Assembly (NCBI RefSeq): GCF_001646655.1
Contig: NZ_LPZN01000016.1
Coordinates: 1-64,000 of the forward strand
Direction of reading: 5' to 3'
DNA: 64,000 nucleotides
From: Rhodococcus gordoniae
GTDB taxonomy: Bacteria; Actinomycetota; Actinomycetes; Mycobacteriales; Mycobacteriaceae
Position 1 is the stretch's first letter. Every line of letters starts with the position of its first letter. This document shows positions 1,836 through 36,978 of this stretch, in pieces. The notes beneath the pieces were generated by a model. It was not told the DNA's origin, did no database searches, and saw nothing but the letters and a program-made list of their open reading frames with translations. Both the position numbers and the translations under genes were made by a program.

Positions 1836-2408
1836 ATGGCAGTCCACCTCACACGGATCTATACGCGCACCGGAGACGACGGAACGACGGGGCTCAGCGA
1901 CTTCTCCCGCGTCTCGAAGAACGACCCTCGTCTGATCGCCTACGCCGATTGCGACGAGACCAACGCGGCGATCGGTGTGGCGCTCGCACTGGGCGCGCTG
2001 CCGGAACGGCTCGTCTCGGTCCTTCGGCAGATCCAGAACGATCTCTTCGATGCCGGCGCCGACCTGTCGACTCCCGTTGTGGAGAACCCGAAGTACCCGC
2101 CGCTGCGCATCACGCAGCAGTACATCGATCGACTCGAGGGCTGGTGCGACGAGTTCAACGAAGAGCTGGAACCGCTCGATTCGTTCATTCTTCCGGGTGG
2201 CACGCCGGGCGCTGCTCTGCTGCACACCGCCAGGACGGTCGCGCGACGCGCCGAACGGTCGGCGTGGGCGGCGGTGGATGCTGCTCCGGACGACACCGAC
2301 GTCTTGCCGGCGAAGTACCTGAACCGGCTCTCGGATCTTCTCTTCATCCTGTGCCGGATCGCGAACCCGGACGGAGACGTGCTGTGGAAGCCCGGAGCAG
2401 GAGCGTGA
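1836..2408 (+). CDS. PduO-type cob(I)alamin adenosyltransferase
   Basis: This 190-residue protein would adenosylate cob(I)alamin with ATP to make coenzyme B12. It carries the PduO-family signature: N-terminal [14 protein letters not shown] (ATP-binding), a central [12 protein letters not shown] segment and C-terminal [14 protein letters not shown] at 1836 was chosen over GTG at 1827 because [13 protein letters not shown] is the start seen in the mycobacterial orthologue (Rv1314c, from memory). The gene is the only plus-strand gene in the first 13 kb and converges with the DUF2550 gene, ten bases away. Confidence 0.93.
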
Positions 2409-2418
2409 CGAAGTCTCT

Positions 2419-2853
2419 CTAGAGGGGGCGGCGGCGCTGCGACCGGCCGTCGGGCCTGGATTCGACCCAGGACATGAAGGCCATCAAAGCGCCGCTGTCG
2501 AGCGCGATCTCGTACGAGTCGTCGCGGTCGACCACATCGAGGATCACGATGTCCTCGGTCATGATGTCGAATTCGGTGTTCTTCGGCGACCGCCGCGACC
2601 GCACGTCGATGCCCTGACGGGCCAAGCGCAGGTCGGGTCCGGGCCGAAGGCTCGAAAGCCTGTAGAACGCGAGTGTCTCGTCGCCGTAACGGACGATTCC
2701 GTGCCTCCAGCCGGAACCCTCGTTCTGAGGCATCACTCGCAGGATCGCGGCAGTACCCCCGCCGCGCAGGGTGAACAGTCGGTACAACAAAGCCGCGACG
2801 GAGACCGCGAGCAGCACCACAAGGATAGTGAGAATCAGAAATCCGAGTGACAC
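2419..2853 (-). CDS. DUF2550 single-pass membrane protein
   Basis: A 144-residue protein with one N-terminal transmembrane helix (about residues 4-26, hydrophobic [18 protein letters not shown]) and a cytoplasmic-looking basic/acidic domain ending in RRRP. It corresponds to the DUF2550 protein that follows atpC in mycobacteria (Rv1312, from memory). Function unknown. It lies 39 bp after atpC with no terminator between them, so it is probably the last gene of the ATP synthase transcript. Start GTG 2853. Confidence 0.85.
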
Positions 2854-2892
2854 TGCTCGTCGGCTCCGTCGCGGCTTCTCGTTGTTCGACGA

Positions 2893-3261
2893 TCAGGCTC
2901 GTTCGACAGCCCGCAGGCGGCCTCGGGCCGCTGCGATCTCCGACTCGTCGCGATTCTCATCGTTCAGAGCCGACTTGGCTGCCTCGACGTCGATGTCCTC
3001 CACGCGGTCGGCGGCTTCGGCGAGCACCGTCACCGTCGTCGCGGTCACCGAGAGGAATCCGCCGTGGACGGCCATGACGATCCGCTGACCGTCCGCGGTC
3101 CTGACGGACACGACGCCACCCTCGACGAGCTGGCCGAGCACGGGCTCGTGACCGGGCATGATGCCGATCTCGCCCTCGGTGGTCTGGGCGGTGACGAGAG
3201 TCGCCGATCCGGACCACACACGCTCCTCGACGGCAACGATGTCCACGCTCATCTCAGCCAC
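2893..3261 (-). CDS. atpC: ATP synthase F1 epsilon subunit
   Basis: Epsilon subunit of the central stalk, 122 residues. The N-terminal beta-sandwich is recognisable ([16 protein letters not shown]), followed by a short two-helix C-terminal part rich in Glu/Ala. It couples c-ring rotation to F1 and can restrain ATP hydrolysis. GTG at 3261 lies 6 bp after atpD; an in-frame ATG at 3252 is an alternative start. Confidence 0.95.
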
Positions 3262-28123: not shown

Positions 28124-29359
28124 TCAACTATTACCCTGCACGGGCTCGATGATCGCGACGATCGACCTGATCTCCCCCGCCGGGATGTCGAAGTGCTCCG
28201 TCACCACGACCGATGTCTCGGCGCTCGGACCCGCTGCGATGTCCAGGACGAACCGCGCGACGACGCTGTGGTGCCATTCACGGAACTGCAGGTCGCGGAT
28301 GCGGCGGATGGGCCGGTACTCGGGGCCGTTCTCGAGGCGATCGCGGATCTCGATGCCGCTGTCGCCGGTGCGCTCCCCGTTCTCGACCCGCCAGGCGTCC
28401 TCGGCGAGCCGCACATGAGACGCGTCGTGGCTGACCAGGGACCGGATGTACGCGCGTGCCATCGCGACGCGGGGGCTGTCGGTCGGTCCCGTGGCGTACA
28501 CGGCCAGCGCGGACATCACGTCCGGTGCCCAATCGGCACGGCAGATCACCAGGTCGGGCAGATACGGATGCGGCCGGTTGTATTCGAGTTCGCTGCCGTC
28601 GATCCGGGCGCAGTGCAGACCCGCGGCACGCGCGACCGCGACCGGCGCCGCCGAATCCCACTCCCACTGACCGCCGGCGTGGATGTAGGCGTCGGCCTCC
28701 CCGCGCACCACCGCCATCGCCTTGGCACCGGCCGAACCCATCCGGATCAGATCGGCACCGAGATCGCGGGCCAGATCGAACACGAAGGCGGGCGGCCTGC
28801 TCCCGCTGATGACGATGCGGGGGCGGCGCCGGGCCGGTTGCGGTGCCGGAACCGGATCGGCGGTGCTGTGAACGACGCCGATCGCCGGTTGCGCGACCGC
28901 GGCGGCGGTGAGTCCTCGTCCTGCCTCCCAGAGCGCGATGTGGACCGCCCAGTCGACGTGGTCGGGCATCCCGTACTCCTTCGACCCGTCGAGGGGGTCG
29001 ATGATCCAGACGCGGTCTGCGCCGACCCGGGCCGGATCGTCCGCGGATTCCTCCGAGAGCACCGCGTCACCGGGTCGTGCGGCCGCCAGCCGTTCGAGGA
29101 TGTACGTGTTGGCGGCGTGGTCGCCGCGCCGGCCCAGCTCGCGCCCGGTGAGAGCATCCGATTCGATGGCACGGACCGTGAGCAGCAGTTCACCTGCGCC
29201 GGAGGCCGTCTCGGCTGCGAGTCGGGCGTCGTCGCCCTCGGCTGCGAGCCGGGCCGTGTCGCCCTCGGCTGCGAGCCGGGCCGTGTCACCCTCGGCCGCG
29301 AGCCGGGCCGTGTCACCCTCGGCCGCGAGCCGGGCCGTGTCACCGTTGTCGTGCGTCAT
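28124..29359 (-). CDS. cysQ: CysQ-type 3'(2'),5'-bisphosphate nucleotidase fused to an NTF2-like domain
   Basis: The first part (about 50-286) is an inositol-monophosphatase-fold enzyme with the metal motif DPLDGSKEY (121-129) and WEWDSAAPV (232-240), as in CysQ, which dephosphorylates PAP to AMP. The second part (about 296-411: ARAYIRSLVSHDASHV, WRVENGERTGDSG) is an extra SnoaL/NTF2-like domain, reminiscent of DUF8021. CysQ alone is about 265 residues. The N-terminus is expanded by five copies of G-D-T-A-R-L-A-A-E. Its ATG overlaps the cysNC stop, so it is the third gene of the PAPS operon. Confidence 0.87.
   Translation of the reverse strand: MTHDNGDTARLAAEGDTARLAAEGDTARLAAEGDTARLAAEGDDARLAAETASGAGELLLTVRAIESDALTGRELGRRGDHAANTYILERLAAARPGDAVLSEESADDPARVGADRVWIIDPLDGSKEYGMPDHVDWAVHIALWEAGRGLTAAAVAQPAIGVVHSTADPVPAPQPARRRPRIVISGSRPPAFVFDLARDLGADLIRMGSAGAKAMAVVRGEADAYIHAGGQWEWDSAAPVAVARAAGLHCARIDGSELEYNRPHPYLPDLVICRADWAPDVMSALAVYATGPTDSPRVAMARAYIRSLVSHDASHVRLAEDAWRVENGERTGDSGIEIRDRLENGPEYRPIRRIRDLQFREWHHSVVARFVLDIAAGPSAETSVVVTEHFDIPAGEIRSIVAIIEPVQGNS
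29214..29345 (-). repeat. 27-bp minisatellite in the cysQ 5' end
   Basis: Five tandem 27-bp units (29214-29240, 29241-29267, 29268-29294, 29295-29321 and 29322-29345, the last shortened) encode GDTARLAAE repeats, residues 6-50. The copy nearest the enzyme domain (GDDARLAAE) is the most diverged and is probably the ancestral N-terminus. Confidence 0.92.
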
Positions 29360-31191
29360 GTTCTCAACAATTCCACGACAAGGCCGGCCTGCACGGCAGG
29401 CGTGCCGTCGTGGGGGCGCACGACCAGGTCGGGATCGGACGGTGGTTCGTAGGGATCGTCGACGCCGGTGAAGCCGGTGATCTCACCGGCCCGTGCCCGC
29501 GCGTACATGCCTTTCGGATCGCGGGCCTCGCAGTCGGCGAGCGGAGTATCGACGAAGACCTCGACAAAGCGGATCCCGGCCTCCTCGTGTTGCCGGCGGA
29601 TGCGGTCGCGGTCCTGTCGGTAGGGACTGATGAGCGCGCAGATCGCGACGAGTCCGGCGTCGGCCATCAAGTGTGCGACCGCGCCGACGCGGCGGACGTT
29701 CTCCGCGCGGTCCTCCGGACCGAATCCGAGATCGGCGTTGAGTCCGTGCCTGAGGTTGTCGCCGTCGAGGCGGTAGGCGGGGATGCCCTCGGCGAGCAGC
29801 CGTCGTTCGAGTTCGACGGCGAGGGTGGACTTGCCGGAGGCGGACAGCCCGGTGAGCCACACCGTCGTCCCGGCCCTTCCCCGCTCGGCCCGCGAGACCG
29901 CCGCCGAGTGCCAGACCACCCGGCTGTCCGCCAGTGTCGGCCCGGTGATCATTCCGGCCGCGACGGTGTTGCCGGTGCGTTCGTCGACGAGCACGAAGCT
30001 TCCGGTGGTGCGGTTGCGCCGATAGGGATCGAACAGCAGCGGCTGTTGTGTGCGCAGGTGCACGCGGCCGATCTCGTTGAGACCGAGCGTCGTCGCGGCC
30101 TCGTCGCGGTGCAGGGTGTTGACGTCGAGACGGTAGTCCAGGCGTGCCACCCGCGCGGTGGTCGAGCGCGTGGTGTGCAGGAGGGCGTAGCGGGCGTCGG
30201 GGTCGAGTGCGGAGCGTTCGTCGAACCAGCACACCATGGCGTCGATCTCGTGCCCGACGAGAGGACGATTGTTGGGTCGGCACAGCATGTCGCCGCGTCC
30301 GACGTCGAGGTCGTCCTCGAGTTCGACGCACACCGCCGCACCGGCGAAGGCGTGCTCGAGTTCCGTTCCACCCGGCCCCCACAACGTCCGCACCCGCGTT
30401 CCGAAACCGGAAGGGAGAACGACCACGTCGTCGCCGGGCGCGAATCCGCCGGCCGCGACCGTTCCGGCGTAGCCGCGGAAGTCGCGGTGCTCACCCTCGC
30501 CGGGCCGGATGACGTACTGCACGGGCAGTCGCGCGTCGATGAGGTTGACGTCCGAGGCGATGTGCACCTGTTCGAGATGGTGCAGCAGCGAAGTGCCCTC
30601 GTACCACGGCATGTTCGCGGTGCGGGAGACGACGTTGTCGCCGTGCAGCGCGGAGACGGGAACGAAGGCGAGGTCGGGCATGTCGAGTTTCGCCGCGAAA
30701 TTCCGGAATTCGTCGCAGATCTCGTCGAAGCGGCACTGTGACCAGTCCACCAGGTCCATCTTGTTGATGCACAGCACCACGTGCCGCACCCCGAGCAGCG
30801 ACGCGAGGAAGGCGTGCCGGCGGGTCTGTTCGACGATGCCCTTGCGGGCGTCGACGAGGACGAGCGCCAGGTCGGCGGTGGACGCCCCGGTGACCATGTT
30901 GCGCGTGTACTGCTCGTGACCGGGAGTGTCGGCGATGACGAATGTTCTGTGCGCCGTAGCGAAATAACGATAGGCGACGTCGATCGTGATGCCCTGCTCA
31001 CGTTCGGCGCGCAGGCCGTCGGTGAGCAGCGCGAGGTCGGCGCGGTCGGACCCGCGGTCGAGGCTCGTGCGGGTCACCGCCTCGAGCTGGTCCTCGAAGA
31101 CCGCCTTCGAGTCGAACAACAGCCGGCCGATGAGCGTGGACTTGCCGTCGTCGACGCTGCCGGCGGTCGCGATGCGCAGGAGGCGGGACAT
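29356..31191 (-). CDS. cysNC: bifunctional sulfate adenylyltransferase subunit 1 / adenylylsulfate kinase
   Basis: A 611-residue fusion. CysN (about 1-425) is a GTPase that drives ATP sulfurylase: G1 GSVDDGKST (11-19), DTPGH (88-92), NKMD (143-146), then EF-Tu-like beta-barrels. CysC (about 440-611) is APS kinase with P-loop GLSASGKST (448-456). With CysD it converts sulfate plus ATP to PAPS. ATG 31191 overlaps the cysD stop by one base. The open frame starts further upstream but without homology. Confidence 0.97.
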   Translation of the reverse strand: MSRLLRIATAGSVDDGKSTLIGRLLFDSKAVFEDQLEAVTRTSLDRGSDRADLALLTDGLRAEREQGITIDVAYRYFATAHRTFVIADTPGHEQYTRNMVTGASTADLALVLVDARKGIVEQTRRHAFLASLLGVRHVVLCINKMDLVDWSQCRFDEICDEFRNFAAKLDMPDLAFVPVSALHGDNVVSRTANMPWYEGTSLLHHLEQVHIASDVNLIDARLPVQYVIRPGEGEHRDFRGYAGTVAAGGFAPGDDVVVLPSGFGTRVRTLWGPGGTELEHAFAGAAVCVELEDDLDVGRGDMLCRPNNRPLVGHEIDAMVCWFDERSALDPDARYALLHTTRSTTARVARLDYRLDVNTLHRDEAATTLGLNEIGRVHLRTQQPLLFDPYRRNRTTGSFVLVDERTGNTVAAGMITGPTLADSRVVWHSAAVSRAERGRAGTTVWLTGLSASGKSTLAVELERRLLAEGIPAYRLDGDNLRHGLNADLGFGPEDRAENVRRVGAVAHLMADAGLVAICALISPYRQDRDRIRRQHEEAGIRFVEVFVDTPLADCEARDPKGMYARARAGEITGFTGVDDPYEPPSDPDLVVRPHDGTPAVQAGLVVELLRT

Positions 31192-32123
31192 CAGAAATAT
31201 CCTTCCTTTTTGCGGTCTTCCATTCCGGCGTCGGAGATCCGGTCGTCCGCCCGGGTAGCGCCGCGCTCGGTGACACGGCTCGCGGCGACCTCGGCGACCA
31301 CCTCGTCCGCGGTGGCGGCGGCAGATTCGACGCAGCCGGTACACGTCGCGTCGCCGACCGTGCGGAAGCGCACGAGACTTTCGCGCGGCACCTCTCCGCC
31401 GTGCAGGGTGAGAAACGGGTTGTGCGCGAGCAGCATTCCGTCACGTTCGACGACGGAACGCCGGTGGGCGTAGTACAGGGAGGGGAGCTCGACGCCCTCG
31501 TCGCGGATGTAGCGCCAGATGTCGAGTTCGGTCCAGTTGGACAGCGGGAAGACCCGCATGTGCTCGCCGCGGCGGTGCCGGCCGTTGTACAGGTGCCACA
31601 GTTCGGGGCGCTGTGCCTTCGGGTCCCACTGCCCGAATTCGTCGCGCAGGCTGAAGATTCGTTCCTTGGCGCGAGCCTTCTCCTCGTCGCGACGGGCGCC
31701 ACCGAAGACGGCGTCGAATCCCCCTTCCCGCAGAGCGCGCAGGAGGGTACCGGTCTGCAGCCGGTTGCGGGTGGCGTGCGGCCCGTCGTCCTCGACGGCA
31801 CGCCCGGCGTCGAGGTCGTCCTGCACCGAGGCGACGATCAGCCGGAGCCCGAGGCGTTCGACGGTGTGGTCGCGGAAGTCGATCACCTCGTCGAAGTTGT
31901 GTCCGGTGTCGATGTGCAACACGGGGAACGGAAGCGGCGCGGGCCAGAACGCCTTGGTGGCCACGTGCAGCATCACCGCGGAGTCCTTACCGCCGGAGAA
32001 CAGCAGGACGGGCCGCGAGAAGGTCGCGGCGACCTCGCGGAAGATGTGCACGGACTCGGCCTCGAGCGCACCGAGCAGCGGCAGTTCGTAGATCGGTGGT
32101 CGTTGCGGCGGCACCGTGGTCAC
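31191..32123 (-). CDS. cysD: sulfate adenylyltransferase subunit 2
   Basis: Catalytic subunit of ATP sulfurylase, 310 residues, PP-loop family: LLFSGGKDSAVML is the nucleotide-binding loop, and GGARRDEEKARAKERIFS and FPLSNWTELDIWRYI are conserved CysD segments. GTG 32123 (TTVPPQRPPIYELP) was chosen; the frame continues to 32282 only through regulatory DNA. First gene of cysD-cysNC-cysQ, under the promoter at 32186-32215. Confidence 0.96.
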   Translation of the reverse strand: MTTVPPQRPPIYELPLLGALEAESVHIFREVAATFSRPVLLFSGGKDSAVMLHVATKAFWPAPLPFPVLHIDTGHNFDEVIDFRDHTVERLGLRLIVASVQDDLDAGRAVEDDGPHATRNRLQTGTLLRALREGGFDAVFGGARRDEEKARAKERIFSLRDEFGQWDPKAQRPELWHLYNGRHRRGEHMRVFPLSNWTELDIWRYIRDEGVELPSLYYAHRRSVVERDGMLLAHNPFLTLHGGEVPRESLVRFRTVGDATCTGCVESAAATADEVVAEVAASRVTERGATRADDRISDAGMEDRKKEGYF

Positions 32124-32145
32124 TCGCGCCCCTCTCACCCGGTGC

Positions 32146-32161
32146 GGTACACATGTGTACC
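32146..32161. promoter_or_regulatory. 16-bp perfect palindrome in the cysD 5' UTR
   Basis: GGTACACATGTGTACC is fully self-complementary and lies 22 bp upstream of the cysD start, just downstream of the predicted transcription start. A related dyad (13 of 16 bases the same) is at 33234-33249 in the other operon. Confidence 0.75.
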
Positions 32162-32185
32162 GACGCGGTCGAAGATTACCCCGCA

Positions 32186-32215
32186 ACAGTAGAACGAGTT
32201 TCAATTCCAGGTCAA
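32186..32215 (-). promoter_or_regulatory. cysD-cysNC-cysQ promoter
   Basis: On the minus strand TTGACC (32210-32215), an 18-bp spacer and TACTGT (32186-32191). Transcription would start near 32179, giving a 5' UTR of about 56 nt that contains the palindrome. The KstR-like box overlaps the spacer and -10. Confidence 0.65.
32190..32203 (-). promoter_or_regulatory. KstR-like operator in the cysD promoter
   Basis: TGAAACTCGTTCTA on the minus strand (TAGAACGAGTTTCA on plus) fits TNNAACNNGTTNNA, the published KstR consensus for cholesterol-regulon repression. It overlaps the first two bases of the -10, a position suited to repression. The IclR-type regulator next door is an alternative binder. Confidence 0.5.
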
Positions 32216-32238
32216 CGGGTGACCGCGGTGACCGTCCG

Positions 32239-33180
32239 TCAGCGCCCCGGCCGGCGTCCACCGAGATCGACGGTGATCGCATCGGCGACCGCCACCAGCG
32301 CCGCGCCGCACCGCTCGATCCCGGCGGCGTCCACCTCCCGCTCGAGGTGGAGTGTGAGCACGAGCGACTGGTGACCGTCCGGATCGTAGGCGGGGGCCGC
32401 CACGAGGTTGACCGCCCGCTTCTCCCCCGCGGCGAAGGCGTCGGGCGTCAGCACGCGCTCACCGGGACTGGTCACGAGTTCCGCCAGCATCTCCCGCATC
32501 TCGGGTGCCAGGTCGTGCGAGACCACCCCCGCCATGAGCGCATACAGGCGGCGACCTCCGGGCGTGAGGGATTCGGCGAGATAGCCCGCGCGGCGACAGT
32601 CGGTGACGATCCGCCACAGGTCGTCGCGGTCGACGGACACGGGCAGGGTCGGCTCCCGCCGCAGCCACTGCTCGATGCGCTCGTCGGTGTCCCACAACAC
32701 GTACATCAACCCCACCGGCGGTGCGAAGGGATACACCTCCCCCACCCGCGCCGCCGCAGCCGTGCCGTGCCCACCGACGACGTCGAGCACCGCGATGCGG
32801 TCGCCGACGACCGCCGACGCGGAGCACATCACGCCGAACTCCTCGACGAGTGCGGCGAGATGCCGGCGCGCGACCGGCCCGGACGCGAATCCGCGCTGCG
32901 CGGCGCGTCCCGCGACGATCAGCGCCGGCCCGAGCCCGTAGGTCTTGTCGACGGGGTCGCGGATCAGATAACCGGCGTCGGTGAGCGCCGTGAGGATGCC
33001 CAGGCAGGTGGGCTTGCTCAGGTCGAGTTCGCGCGCCAGTTCCGACAATCCGAACCGGACGCCGGGTCGCGCGACGAGGTGGTCGAGGACCTGTACGACG
33101 CGCTCCGTGGGCGGCGACCGGCGGGCGGTCCCCGCCCCGGCAGCCGACTCCGCGAGCGCCTCGGTCTCGCGACGACCCAT
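32239..33180 (-). CDS. IclR-family transcriptional regulator
   Basis: A 313-residue regulator: N-terminal winged helix (about 22-85, ERVVQVLDHLVARPGVRFGLSELA region and the recognition helix SKPTCLGILTALTDAGYL) and a C-terminal effector-binding domain. ATG 33180 is preferred over GTG 33198 since it has GGAGGG just upstream and the longer start would begin inside an operator. It lies between the PAPS operon and the sulfotransferase operon, whose promoters share elements, so it is the first candidate to control both. Confidence 0.88.
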   Translation of the reverse strand: MGRRETEALAESAAGAGTARRSPPTERVVQVLDHLVARPGVRFGLSELARELDLSKPTCLGILTALTDAGYLIRDPVDKTYGLGPALIVAGRAAQRGFASGPVARRHLAALVEEFGVMCSASAVVGDRIAVLDVVGGHGTAAAARVGEVYPFAPPVGLMYVLWDTDERIEQWLRREPTLPVSVDRDDLWRIVTDCRRAGYLAESLTPGGRRLYALMAGVVSHDLAPEMREMLAELVTSPGERVLTPDAFAAGEKRAVNLVAAPAYDPDGHQSLVLTLHLEREVDAAGIERCGAALVAVADAITVDLGGRRPGR

Positions 33181-33208
33181 TGACCCTCCCTGGAACACGT
33201 TCTACTCT
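33180..33208 (+). promoter_or_regulatory. promoter of the DUF1214-SDR-sulfotransferase operon
   Basis: TTGACC (33180-33185), a 17-bp spacer and TACTCT (33203-33208) on the plus strand. The -35 begins in the first base of the divergent IclR start codon. Layout matches the cysD promoter. Confidence 0.65.
33191..33204 (+). promoter_or_regulatory. KstR-like operator in the sulfotransferase-operon promoter
   Basis: TGGAACACGTTCTA matches TNNAACNNGTTNNA with the core palindrome GAAC-AC-GTTC. It sits between -35 and -10 and overlaps the -10 by two bases. Confidence 0.6.
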
Positions 33209-33233
33209 CGGCGCAACGGAAGACTACCGCAGC

Positions 33234-33249
33234 GGTACATATTTGGACC
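33234..33249. promoter_or_regulatory. second operator-like dyad of the sulfotransferase operon
   Basis: GGTACATATTTGGACC is an imperfect dyad, identical at 13 of 16 positions to the perfect palindrome at 32146-32161, and begins 54 bp from the start of the -35 in both promoters. A TACCGC-A-GCGGTA inverted repeat (33225-33237) overlaps its left arm, so the exact site is uncertain. Confidence 0.6.
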
Positions 33250-33262
33250 ACAGGAGTTCGCA

Positions 33263-34429
33263 GTGCTCACCGATCCGCTCACCGCGGCGATAGCCGAGGC
33301 CGAGAAACTCGTCGCCACCGCCCCCCACATCCGCACCGAGCAGGACCTCGTCGAGGGATACGGCTATCTGGCCGGTGGGATCTCCGCGTGCGTCCACGCC
33401 ACGTTCGCGTACAGCCGCTCCCATCCGGTCTTCGTCACCGGCACCGGCCCCTACACGAAGATGGGCCTCGACAATCCCGACACCCTGTACTGGGGCGCGT
33501 CGATCCGAGACGACGCCGAGTACGTCGTCACCGGGCGCCGCGGCACGACCTGCGACCTCAGCTTCCAGGTGCTGGCCGGCAACTACACGGACGCCGAGGT
33601 ACCCGGCAACGTCACGGCCTTCGACGACCGCGCACTGACCATCGCCGACGACGGCACCTTCGAGGTGCGGTTCGGTCCCGGCCCCCGCGACCCGGATCGG
33701 AACTACTTCCCGCTCGCGCCCGGCTCGTCGCAGCTCGTCGTCCGCGAGGTCTACAGCGACTGGACGCAACGCCGCGGCACGCTGGGCATCCACCGGCTCG
33801 ACAGCCTCGGCGTCCCGGCCCCCGAACCCACCCACCAGGACGTGGTCACCCGTTACGAACGTGCCGGTCGCGCGCTGGTCTCGCGGGTGAAGACCTGGCT
33901 GCAGTTCCCCGAGTGGTTCTACCTGAAGCTGCCGGTGAACACGGTGACGGAACCACGCCGCACCCCCGGCGGTCTGGACACGCAGTACTCGTCCGTCGGG
34001 CACTACGAACTCGGCGACGACGAGGCGATGGTCCTGACCCTCCCCGCGAGCGACGCGCCCTATCTGGGCTTCCAGATCGGCAGCCTCTGGTACATCTCCC
34101 TGGACTACATCCATCACCAGACCTCCCTGAACAACAGCCAGGCGCAGGTCGATCCCGACGGGATGGTCCGGATCGTGGTCTCGGCCCGCAATCCGGGACT
34201 GACGAACTGGGTCGAGACCCTCGGCCGCAGCCGCGGGATCCTGCAGTTCCGCTGGCAGCGCCTCGATCGCGAACTGACCGCGGCCGACGGCCCGACCGCC
34301 GAGGTGGTGCCGGTCGATCGGCTCTCCGAGGTCCTGCCCTTCCACGAGTCGAACCGCATCACCCCCGACGCCTGGGCGCAGCGCATCGCGGACCGCCAGC
34401 GGGGCGTCGCCGATCGGATGCTCGGATGA
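33263..34429 (+). CDS. DUF1214-type protein, first gene of the sulfotransferase operon
   Basis: A 388-residue protein without signal peptide or membrane helices. The C-terminal part (LTLPASDAPYLGFQIGSLWYIS, NNSQAQVDPDGMVRIVVSARNPG, WVETLGRSRGILQFRWQR) is of the DUF1214 type. GTG 33263 has CAGGAG 6 nt upstream. The gene set DUF1214-like, SDR and sulfotransferase-like resembles Rv3531c-Rv3530c-Rv3529c of M. tuberculosis, which I recall as part of the cholesterol-responsive regulon; biochemical function unknown. Its stop overlaps the next start (ATGA). Confidence 0.8.
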   Translation: MLTDPLTAAIAEAEKLVATAPHIRTEQDLVEGYGYLAGGISACVHATFAYSRSHPVFVTGTGPYTKMGLDNPDTLYWGASIRDDAEYVVTGRRGTTCDLSFQVLAGNYTDAEVPGNVTAFDDRALTIADDGTFEVRFGPGPRDPDRNYFPLAPGSSQLVVREVYSDWTQRRGTLGIHRLDSLGVPAPEPTHQDVVTRYERAGRALVSRVKTWLQFPEWFYLKLPVNTVTEPRRTPGGLDTQYSSVGHYELGDDEAMVLTLPASDAPYLGFQIGSLWYISLDYIHHQTSLNNSQAQVDPDGMVRIVVSARNPGLTNWVETLGRSRGILQFRWQRLDRELTAADGPTAEVVPVDRLSEVLPFHESNRITPDAWAQRIADRQRGVADRMLG

Positions 34430-35217
34430 GCGCGACAGCGGGACTGCTCCGCGACCGAGTCGTCGTGATCTCCGGGGTCGGCCCGGGACTGGGACGCACG
34501 CTCGCGCTGCGGTGCGCCGAGCACGGCGCCGACGTGGTGCTCGCCGCCCGGACCCGGGAGCGGCTCGAGAAGGTTGCAGCGGAAGTCGAGGGCACGGGCC
34601 GCCGGGCACTGGTCGTACCCACCGACATCACCGACGACGAATCCGCCGCCGCACTCGTCGAGAGGGTGGTCTCGGAATTCGGACGGGCCGACGTGCTCGT
34701 GAACAACGCTTTCTCCGTTCCGTCGATGAAGCCGTTGGCTCGCACCGATTTCCAGCAGATCCGGGACAGTGTGGAGCTCACCGTCCTCGGCGCATTGCGA
34801 CTCACCCAGTTGTTCGCCCCCGCCCTCGCCGAATCGGCCGGTGCGGTGATCAACATCAATTCGATGGTGCTGCGGCACTCCCAGGAACGTTACGGCAGTT
34901 ACAAACTCGCGAAGTCGGCACTGCTGGCGATGTCCCGATCCCTCGCGACCGAACTCGGAGTCCAGGGCATCCGGGTGAACTCTGTTGCGCCGGGCTATAT
35001 CTGGGGTCCGATCCTGCAAGGGTACTTCGAACACCAGGCGGACAAATACGGTACCACCGTCGAACAGATCTACGAGCACACCGCCGCCGCCTCCGATCTG
35101 AAGCGTCTCCCGACCACCGAGGAGATCGCGGATGCGGTGATCTTCCTGGCCTCGCCGATGGCGTCGGCGATCACCGGCCAGTGCCTCGACGTCAACTGCG
35201 GCGAATACCACCACTGA
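34426..35217 (+). CDS. short-chain dehydrogenase/reductase
   Basis: Classical SDR, 263 residues. Cofactor motif GVGPGLG (17-23), NNAF (93-96), and the catalytic Ser146, Tyr159 and Lys163, with Ser-Tyr spacing of 13 and YxxxK as expected. Arg residues after the second strand (AARTRERL) suggest NADP preference, weakly. It presumably oxidises a hydroxyl or reduces a ketone on the same substrate that the downstream enzyme sulfonates. Translationally coupled to the upstream gene. Confidence 0.9.
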   Translation: MSATAGLLRDRVVVISGVGPGLGRTLALRCAEHGADVVLAARTRERLEKVAAEVEGTGRRALVVPTDITDDESAAALVERVVSEFGRADVLVNNAFSVPSMKPLARTDFQQIRDSVELTVLGALRLTQLFAPALAESAGAVININSMVLRHSQERYGSYKLAKSALLAMSRSLATELGVQGIRVNSVAPGYIWGPILQGYFEHQADKYGTTVEQIYEHTAAASDLKRLPTTEEIADAVIFLASPMASAITGQCLDVNCGEYHH

Positions 35218-35229
35218 ACGGGACAGCAC

Positions 35230-36378
35230 ATGAGCGAACGCACCACCGTCGGCACCGCCCCGGATCTGCATGCCTCCGCGACCCGCCTGACGGGCCTGAC
35301 CGATTTCGGCGACGACGCCTACCTCGACGGACTCGAGGTGCTGCTCGAATCGTATGCGCGGGACGAGAAGCTCACCCCGCTCGGCAGCAAGATGTCGCGG
35401 GTCTTCCTGCGCGGCGCCCTCGTGGCGCGGTTGCTGTCGGAATCTGCCTGGGCCGCCCATCCCGAGCACACGGACGTCCCGATCACCCGGCCGATCTTCG
35501 TCACCGGCCTGCCCCGCACCGGAACGACGGCACTGCACCGCCTGCTCGCCGCGGATCCCGCCCACCAGGGGCTCGAGATGTGGCTGACGGAGATGCCGCA
35601 GCCCCGGCCGCCCCGCGAGACCTGGGCGGAGAACCCGGTGTTCGCCGGTATCGAGGCCGGATTCGCGCAGCACCACGTCGAGCACCCCGAGTTCATGGGT
35701 GTGCACTACATGTCCGCCGCCGAGGTCGAGGAATGCTGGCAGTTGCTGCGCCAGTCGTTCCGGTCGATCTCCTACGAGTGCCTGGCCCACCTGCCCACCT
35801 ACTCGCAATGGCTTGCCGGGCAGGACTGGACCGCGGCGTATGCCCGGCATCGGAGGAACCTGCAGCTCATCGGGCTTCCCGATGCCGGCAAGCGGTGGGT
35901 GCTGAAGAATCCCAGTCACCTGTTCGCACTGGACGAACTGCTCGAGGTGTACCCGGACGCGCTCGTCGTCGTCACCCATCGCGATCCGCGTACCGTCATC
36001 CCGTCGGTGTGCAGCCTCGCGGCGCAGGCCACAGAGGGGTGGTCCGAGGCGTTCGTCGGAGAGACGATCGGTCGCAGTCAGCTCGATCTCTGGGCACGGG
36101 GTTTCGACGATTTCACCGAGGCGCGCCGCCGACACGATCCTGCCCGTTTCGTCGACGTGGACTACCGGGATTTCGTCGCCGATCCGCTCGGCACCGTCGG
36201 GGGCCTGTACGACCGGTTCGGTCTGCCGTTCACTGCGGAGGCCGAACACGCGATGACCGCACTGCACGAAGAAAGCCGCAGCGGGGCAAGGAAACCCGCA
36301 CACCGGTACACCCTCGAGGAGTTCGGGCTGAGTGTGGGCGAGGTCGACGAGCGTTTCCGCGACTACGCATACCGCTGA
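35230..36378 (+). CDS. PAPS-dependent sulfotransferase family protein
   Basis: A 382-residue protein with the 5'-phosphosulfate-binding loop GLPRTGTT (93-100) and the 3'-phosphate motif THRDPRTVIPS (249-259), the two PAPS-contact regions of sulfotransferases. It would transfer sulfate from PAPS to an alcohol or amine, leaving PAP. It is 12 bp after the SDR gene, and the operon making PAPS and removing PAP is 3 kb away under a look-alike promoter. Acceptor unknown. Similar in length to Rv3529c (384, from memory). Confidence 0.87.
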   Translation: MSERTTVGTAPDLHASATRLTGLTDFGDDAYLDGLEVLLESYARDEKLTPLGSKMSRVFLRGALVARLLSESAWAAHPEHTDVPITRPIFVTGLPRTGTTALHRLLAADPAHQGLEMWLTEMPQPRPPRETWAENPVFAGIEAGFAQHHVEHPEFMGVHYMSAAEVEECWQLLRQSFRSISYECLAHLPTYSQWLAGQDWTAAYARHRRNLQLIGLPDAGKRWVLKNPSHLFALDELLEVYPDALVVVTHRDPRTVIPSVCSLAAQATEGWSEAFVGETIGRSQLDLWARGFDDFTEARRRHDPARFVDVDYRDFVADPLGTVGGLYDRFGLPFTAEAEHAMTALHEESRSGARKPAHRYTLEEFGLSVGEVDERFRDYAYR

Positions 36379-36450: not shown

Positions 36451-36978
36451 ATGCCCGCACCACTCCCCCTCGACCCCATCGCCGAAGCCCACCGCCAGTG
36501 GACCGCCCACGGCTGGGGCGAAGTCGCCGACGGCATGGCCGCGGTCACCTCGGTGATGCGGGCGCAGCAGATCATGATGGCGCGGGTCGAGGAGGTGCTC
36601 AAACCCTTCGGCCTGACCTTCGCCCGTTACGAACTGCTCACGCTGCTGCATTTCACCAGGTCCGGAGCGTTGCCGATGGCGAAGGCCAGCGCGCGCCTGC
36701 AGGTGCACCCCACCAGCGTCACCAACGCCGTCGACCGCCTCGAGAAGGCCGGGCTGGTCCGGCGCACCCCGCATCCGAGCGATCGACGGGCCACTCTCAT
36801 CGAACTCACCGACGAGGGACGGGCATCGGCGATCCAGGCGACCGAGAAGCTCAACACGGAGGTCTTCGCCCGGCCCGGCATTCCCGAGGGGCACATCGAC
36901 ACGTTGTTGCGCATCCTCGCGACGATGCGGCACGACGCCGGCGACTTCGACACCGGCGGTGCGCCTTCCAAGTGGTGA
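36451..36978 (+). CDS. MarR-family transcriptional regulator
   Basis: A 175-residue winged-helix regulator. The recognition region is KASARLQVHPTSVTNAVDRLEKAGLV (about 76-101), followed by the wing RRTPHPSDRRATLIELT, both typical of MarR. Its ligand and targets are unknown. ATG 36451 has GGAG close upstream. It converges on the valine operon across a shared terminator and could regulate that operon or the sulfotransferase cluster; the sequence does not decide. Confidence 0.9.
   Translation: MPAPLPLDPIAEAHRQWTAHGWGEVADGMAAVTSVMRAQQIMMARVEEVLKPFGLTFARYELLTLLHFTRSGALPMAKASARLQVHPTSVTNAVDRLEKAGLVRRTPHPSDRRATLIELTDEGRASAIQATEKLNTEVFARPGIPEGHIDTLLRILATMRHDAGDFDTGGAPSKW

Follow-up and report, generated by a model that had tools for sequence, protein, structure and literature searches.

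The DNA motif of the steroid regulator KstR, its overlap with the -10 element and the binding of KstR to probes carrying the motif have been published (Kendall 2007, PMC1995591; this and the other papers cited here are drawn on from the portions consulted). In Table 3 of that paper the Rv3531c/Rv3532 site is marked positive by electrophoretic mobility shift assay and the MSMEG_5932 site positive by quantitative reverse transcription PCR, so KstR control of the operon encoding a DUF1214 protein, a short-chain dehydrogenase (SDR) and a sulfotransferase (Rv3531c-Rv3530c-Rv3529c) is already known in mycobacteria. No tested role for this operon within the KstR regulon is described in the parts of the literature consulted; Rv3529c is given as Stf1 in one source (PMC8882603) and listed as a conserved hypothetical in another (PMC6429209). 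For the IclR family of regulators, a comparative study predicts sites of three boxes of alternating direction in 32 orthologous groups, with PcaU, PobR and HmgR as known three-box cases (PMC8222616). In Bacteroides, cholesterol sulfate is the product of BT_0416, and the flanking BT_0411 to BT_0415 are putative genes for 3´-phosphoadenosine 5´-phosphosulfate (PAPS) (PMC9417993). Here we describe a locus in a stretch of 64,000 nt from Rhodococcus gordoniae (GCF_001646655.1, contig NZ_LPZN01000016.1, positions 1-64,000, forward strand; hereafter the window), where an iclR gene stands between a minus-strand cysD-cysNC-cysQ operon predicted to supply PAPS and a plus-strand DUF1214-SDR-sulfotransferase operon. 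Judged from the sequence and its relatives, the two operons probably make up a sulfation module with two gates within the steroid (KstR) regulon.

An earlier note on this DNA had claimed that the two operons share one promoter architecture on either side of iclR, and nearly all of its elements could be located as described. The cysD promoter (32186..32215, minus strand) has the -35 hexamer TTGACC at 32215-32210, an 18-bp spacer and the -10 hexamer TACTGT at 32191-32186; the DUF1214 promoter (33180..33208, plus strand) has TTGACC at 33180-33185, a 17-bp spacer and TACTCT at 33203-33208. Each -10 element is overlapped by a KstR box, TGAAACTCGTTCTA at cysD (32190..32203, minus strand) and TGGAACACGTTCTA at DUF1214 (33191..33204, plus strand), both of which match the pattern TnnAACnnGTTnnA (motif from PMC1995591) exactly. 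A GGTACA-type dyad begins 54 bp from the first base of the -35 in both promoters. On the cysD side it is the perfect palindrome GGTACACATGTGTACC (32146..32161, minus strand; score of 19.6 with the operator model described below), and on the DUF1214 side GGTACATATTTGGACC (33234..33249, plus strand; sequence comparison), the two being identical at 13 of 16 positions. A third half-site lies 5 bp away in each case: TCGACC (32167..32172, minus strand), which is part of the 28-bp operator match at cysD, and ACTACC (33223..33228, plus strand), upstream of the DUF1214-side dyad. We predict that both dyads are operators of the local IclR protein. Two details of the claim had to be amended. The shared -10 string is AAC[A/T]CGTTCTACT, without the leading G proposed for it, since AAC is preceded by G in one promoter and by A in the other, and the layouts agree in their elements and dyad distance but not in the length of the -35/-10 spacer. 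Within the window, TTGAC-N49-GGTACA occurs at these two promoters only, and GGTACANNNNTGKACC has three exact matches in the genome, two of which are these promoters. With one mismatch allowed, GGTACANNNNTGKACC was no commoner than its reversed control (8 + 9 matches by strand versus 9 + 9), and the case for the dyad therefore rests on comparison.

For this comparison, 200 genomes were drawn from the order. A DUF1214 homologue was detected at E <= 1e-40 in 50 of them and an IclR orthologue at the same threshold, which defines the IclR-positive genomes of this sample, in 27 (in G195 in two pieces), always divergent from the DUF1214 gene. Nine genomes with weaker IclR matches were not counted; eight have matches of 28-36% identity, and the ninth, the fragmented genome G147, has a 121-residue piece of 50% identity and no DUF1214 match listed. 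An operator model of 28 bp, trained on 25 unique Rhodococcus and Nocardia operators, scored 4.9 or higher at all 27 IclR-positive loci and -0.1 or lower at all 24 DUF1214 loci without an adjacent IclR (23 genomes and one second copy, in G095). Three of the IclR-positive test loci (L059, L067 and L069) come from the training genera (g1, and g3, presumed to be Nocardia) and the other 24 from other genera. The score of L080 was reached by 1 of 60 shuffled sequences, and those of the remaining 26 loci by none. The split by iclR spans families f1, f2 and f14 and also runs inside genus g2, where 15 genomes have IclR and six do not, a pattern that would be difficult to account for if the dyad were not a site for IclR. 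The KstR box was exact at 23 of the 27 IclR-positive loci and, among the 24 loci without adjacent IclR, exact at 14, matched at 7/8 positions at five and weaker at five. The dyad follows the neighbouring iclR, not the KstR box.

A simple dyad score over 14 positions did not separate the loci, IclR-positive and IclR-negative ones overlapping at 11 to 12. A wider dyad pattern was found at 27/27 IclR-positive loci and in 0/27 IclR-negative rows (three of which repeat a genome); this pattern was drawn up after sight of the same loci and is not independent of them. An exact composite of box half and operator was present in 9 of the 200 genomes, from three genera and two families, compared to one match for the reversed control. 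Among 18 genomes of the window's own genus, the dyad pattern was detected at 25 places, all of them in the 15 IclR-positive genomes and all within about 180 bp of iclR; the reversed pattern had no match in the 18, and none of the three genomes lacking iclR contained the dyad pattern (one of these, G208, is only 75% complete). Chance likeness of the two promoters was ruled out on the strength of these 25 dyads, and since all of them adjoin iclR, the regulator seems to have just two targets in the genus, the flanking operons. Common control by one or two regulators, which the earlier note had proposed, is thus supported; two are indicated, with KstR predicted to act on the box and the local IclR on the three-half-site operator. 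We also noted that three IclR-positive loci (L076, L081 and L085) have a dyad without an exact KstR box, the reverse of the IclR-negative loci, and that G060 carries a second IclR-DUF1214-cysD-cysNC copy (L069/L165, contig C10) with IclR-type operators at both promoters and no KstR box.

The double-control layout is real and conserved. Comparison within the genus revealed both elements at 15/15 DUF1214 and 14/14 cysD promoters, one of the 15 IclR-positive loci being without cysD, and a distance from -35 to dyad of 53-56 bp. We further collected 58 loci through IclR, 12 from Rhodococcus and 46 from Nocardia. Given how they were found, these say nothing on genomes without IclR, which are covered instead by the 200-genome sample. 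Gene order, with iclR between the operons, is kept in the 58 loci as far as the contigs extend, with the exception of L006. On the DUF1214 side, every one of the 58 carries an exact KstR box along with a dyad that fits 9 to 12 of 12 positions; the dyad starts 43 bp after the box start in 46/46 Nocardia loci and 42-44 bp after it in 11/12 Rhodococcus loci (the twelfth, L007, has two boxes, of which the nearer was counted), and TTGAC stands at the -35 place in 38 of the 46 and 11 of the 12, respectively. On the cysD side, the dyad stands at 42-44 bp, together with a box (10 exact, one at 7/8), in each of the 11 cysD-bearing Rhodococcus loci, and 10 of these have TTGAC at the -35 place. For Nocardia, the KstR-like box at cysD matches at 7/8 positions in 44 of the 46 loci, at six in one and at four in another. 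Box and dyad at both promoters are found in Rhodococcus and in one related genus (L084, box at 7/8), and the IclR operator at cysD is mostly confined to Rhodococcus. In L006 and G215 (IclR at 2090-3019 in both), which represent a natural loss of the PAPS part, the DUF1214 promoter retains both elements.

The predicted operator is of a known kind. The 25 unique DUF1214-side operators of Rhodococcus and Nocardia give the consensus TGTACC-N5-GGTACA-N4-TGGAAC, in which TACC of the first half-site, GGTAC of the second and TG, A and C of the third are invariant, and the general form is about TGTACC-N5-GGTACA-N4-TGKAMC. These three half-sites of alternating direction, with halves like GKTYC/GRAMC, resemble the three-box operators of PcaU, PobR and HmgR (PMC8222616). 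They differ in their spacers, N5 and N4 compared to about 3-4 and 5-6 implied, on our own reading, by the published two-box consensuses, and, unlike the sites of those three regulators as described there, the operator in the window is paired with a KstR box at a fixed spacing (PMC8222616). The iclR gene itself (32239..33180, minus strand) starts with ATG at 33180, with an upstream GTG at 33198 as a possible alternative. Its product was assigned by PF09339 (HTH_IclR, 32.1 bits, cut-off 22), and residues 40-203 match the IclR-family structure 5tjj (E 1.7e-08).

In the 4.82 Mb genome, the exact KstR pattern occurs at 31 palindromic places, compared to 5 for its reversed control. Of the 29 places outside the window, the surroundings were read for 20; some (L145, L146 and L154) read as inside coding sequence and may be chance matches. 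The genome encodes a KstR orthologue (a minus-strand open reading frame (ORF) in L156, E near 1e-84 to 5aqc and 5cw8) whose gene adjoins its own KstR box, and further boxes precede ORFs read from their translations, with no family scan, as 3-ketosteroid dehydrogenase, KshA and CYP125. The mycobacterial counterpart of cysD is presumably locus tag Rv1285. Compared to the Rv3531c-Rv3530c-Rv3529c promoter, the window has the same box over the -10 of an orthologous operon, and it adds to the regulon of Table 3, in which no cysD site and no IclR operator were seen, a box at the PAPS operon and a local IclR operator (PMC1995591).

Outside the IclR-positive loci, 12 loci have cysD with neither iclR nor dyad, and in 11 of them a KstR-like box precedes cysD. 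Seven of these (L090, L094, L095, L099, L118, L133 and L135) carry AAGAACNNGTTCTA, a 7/8 match, and four (L109, L112, L163 and L164) an exact box; the cysD promoter of L137 has no box at 7/8 or better. Among IclR-positive loci beyond the 58, AAGAACNNGTTCTA stands at cysD in five f14 loci and a 7/8 box in L084, and no cysD box at 7/8 or better was found in L066, L069 and L070. Some of the 7/8 matches may be chance. KstR-like boxes at cysD are spread over several families, and from this distribution the KstR link there seems more widespread than the added IclR control. The types of regulator and the class of operator are already known; what is new is the predicted placing of the PAPS operon cysD-cysNC-cysQ under the same control as the DUF1214 operon. 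We found no report of KstR control of PAPS supply or of a dedicated IclR gate in the open literature, a search that left most subscription papers uncovered.

The genes of the two operons fit one reaction. PAPS, which serves sulfotransferases as sulfate donor, is the product of adenosine 5´-phosphosulfate (APS) kinase, and the by-product 3´-phosphoadenosine 5´-phosphate (PAP) is broken down by CysQ (PMC3141025). On the minus strand, cysD (31191..32123, GTG start; TIGR02039, 458.6 bits, above cut-off) encodes the small subunit of sulfate adenylyltransferase, cysNC (29356..31191; NF004035, 942.5 bits) its GTPase fused to APS kinase, and a cysQ-like gene (28124..29359; PF00459, and TIGR01331 CysQ at 87.1 bits, under the model cut-off) a candidate PAP(S) phosphatase. 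On the plus strand follow an Rv3531c-type DUF1214 protein (33263..34429, GTG start; PF06742, 24.5 bits, just under the cut-off of 25), an Rv3530c-type SDR (34426..35217; NF005909, 423 bits) and a Stf1-type sulfotransferase (35230..36378; PF13469, 216.4 bits), a close sequence relative (E 1.4e-161) of PDB 2zq5, which we take to be Stf1. The window cysNC carries the sole full-length APS kinase domain (PF01583) in the genome; the one further match is partial (positions 3-44 of 152), with 20.8 to 21.3 bits (cut-off 21.1). The sulfotransferase is likewise the sole match to PF13469, the sulfotransferase family that was scanned for. In 14 of the 15 IclR-positive genus genomes, iclR has an APS kinase at a distance of about 2.4 kb, the only full-length one in all of them except G202, which has two; in the fifteenth, G215, the APS kinase is on another contig. 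The genome of the window has a second cysD, 65% identical to the first. Its cluster was read as assimilatory, the ORFs being taken for sulfite reductase, CysH and CysN, and the 1.5 kb flanks examined contain no exact KstR box. The presence of cysD and cysNC alongside a sulfotransferase recalls BT_0411 to BT_0416 of Bacteroides, where the association is tied to sterols; that cluster belongs to another phylum and control by KstR or IclR is not described for it in the parts consulted, whereas the window has predicted steroid control (PMC9417993). The stretches examined around the g2 relatives of Rv3529c contain neither cysD nor cysNC. Two other features of the neighborhood were recorded: the N-terminus of the cysQ-like gene contains five in-frame tandem copies of a 27-base unit (GDTARLAAE repeats, 29210-29344), and a MarR-family gene follows the sulfotransferase (36451-36978), with a counterpart in 11/12 Rhodococcus loci (the twelfth contig stops before it) and in 0/46 Nocardia loci, some of which are cut short.

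We propose the following mechanism. KstR, bound to the box over the -10 of both promoters, would block RNA polymerase until released by its ligand, steroid-derived coenzyme A thioesters. IclR, encoded between the operons, would bind the three-half-site operator, which in Rhodococcus lies just downstream of the predicted transcript start, and would most likely act as a second, local repressor (a roadblock) of both operons, sensing some pathway product. With both gates open, CysD-CysNC would make PAPS, CysQ would remove PAP, and the sulfotransferase, together with the SDR and the DUF1214 protein, would sulfonate a metabolite of steroid breakdown. Several observations weigh against this proposal. 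In seven of the 15 IclR-positive g2 loci (L068, L071, L072, L073, L074, L080 and L083), the dyad is confined to the iclR side, upstream of the DUF1214 promoter (at -65 to -67, with the KstR box at -24 or -25). Three others (L075, L077 and L078) carry a dyad on either side of the KstR box, the first nearer iclR and the second nearer DUF1214, and the remaining five (L076, L079, L081, L082 and L085) have it on the DUF1214 side. An exact KstR box is missing from the IclR-positive loci L069, L076, L081 and L085. Pfam matches only the helix-turn-helix of the IclR protein, with no match to the effector domain. At cysD, the dyad is present in 0/46 Nocardia loci, the operator is absent from the f14 loci and from the g31 loci L066 and L070, and the latter two also have no box there; dual control of cysD is therefore not general. 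L006, and by its look G215, has no cysD-cysNC between iclR and cysQ, and the genomes that were compared are related and do not represent independent events.

The mode of IclR action is where another reading has most room. IclR might bind the dyads chiefly to activate transcription, in the manner of PcaU or PobR, or to regulate its own gene, leaving KstR as the only repressor. Since the dyad in the seven g2 loci lies only upstream of the promoter, activation or autoregulation fits that group as well as repression does, and PcaU and PobR, which like HmgR have three-box sites, are activators according to reference titles in PMC8222616. In Rhodococcus, Nocardia and f14, however, the KstR box and the dyad begin 42-44 bp apart, which places the dyad beyond the -10, a position that suits repression. 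Because the operator follows the -10, we prefer, as a tentative reading, a second repressor for Rhodococcus, and consider a mainly activating or autoregulatory IclR unlikely. In the least probable of the readings weighed here, KstR alone matters: the dyad would be the site of another factor or an RNA element within the 5´ leader, and shared ancestry would account for the link between dyad and iclR. The Rhodococcus dyad does fall within the predicted 5´ leader and close to the ribosome-binding site, and the relatedness of the genomes bears on this reading too. Yet the dyad is present or absent along with iclR across several families and within a single genus, its pattern has no other place in 18 genus genomes, and in the seven g2 genomes the same operator stands outside the predicted DUF1214 transcript, on which ground an RNA element was rejected as the principal reading.

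Two further readings concern the resemblance of the promoters and the box at cysD. The twin layout could record a promoter copied beside another gene rather than selection for joint control, in keeping with the equal 54-bp spacing, the 13/16 dyad identity and a spacer between box and dyad that is slightly more alike than in shuffles (P 0.0485, 2000 shuffles; third half-site included). This is very improbable in our estimation: the two promoters share little identity outside the motifs, Nocardia comes near an outgroup state of one dyad only, with unrelated spacers, and the boxes are probably older than the twin layout, since they stand at cysD in 11 of 12 loci that have neither iclR nor dyad. 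The cysD box might instead be a -10 flank that merely looks like a KstR site, sulfate activation being controlled by sulfur regulators and the sulfotransferase having no tie to steroids. That the box differs from the pattern by one base in f12 and f14 loci and in almost every Nocardia locus, that 7/8 matches in a 160-base stretch can be chance, and that M. tuberculosis cysD-cysNC respond to stress, cysteine and sulfate (PMC3141025) all lend this some weight. We nevertheless regard it as improbable, given that the box is exact in 10 of 11 Rhodococcus loci of the IclR-found set and in 14/14 genus genomes, stands at the same place (-24), or nearly so, in 43 of 46 Nocardia rows, and is common to cysD and the promoter of orthologues of known KstR targets.

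If the sulfation module is as we suppose, a PAPS operon under the same control, with the sole full-length APS kinase of this genome, would turn what was an orphan operon into a pathway open to test, from steroid to sulfonated product. The locus also offers a natural test bed for two unrelated regulators on one promoter, with relatives in which the second operator is retained, absent or relocated. More tentatively, and with rather less confidence than we place in the module itself, many actinobacteria may treat sulfation as a step of steroid breakdown, with PAPS supply under KstR and, in Rhodococcus, also under a dedicated IclR sensor, so that a steroid intermediate would be sulfonated only when both signals are present and the Rv3529c-3531c operon of the KstR regulon would gain a biochemical role.

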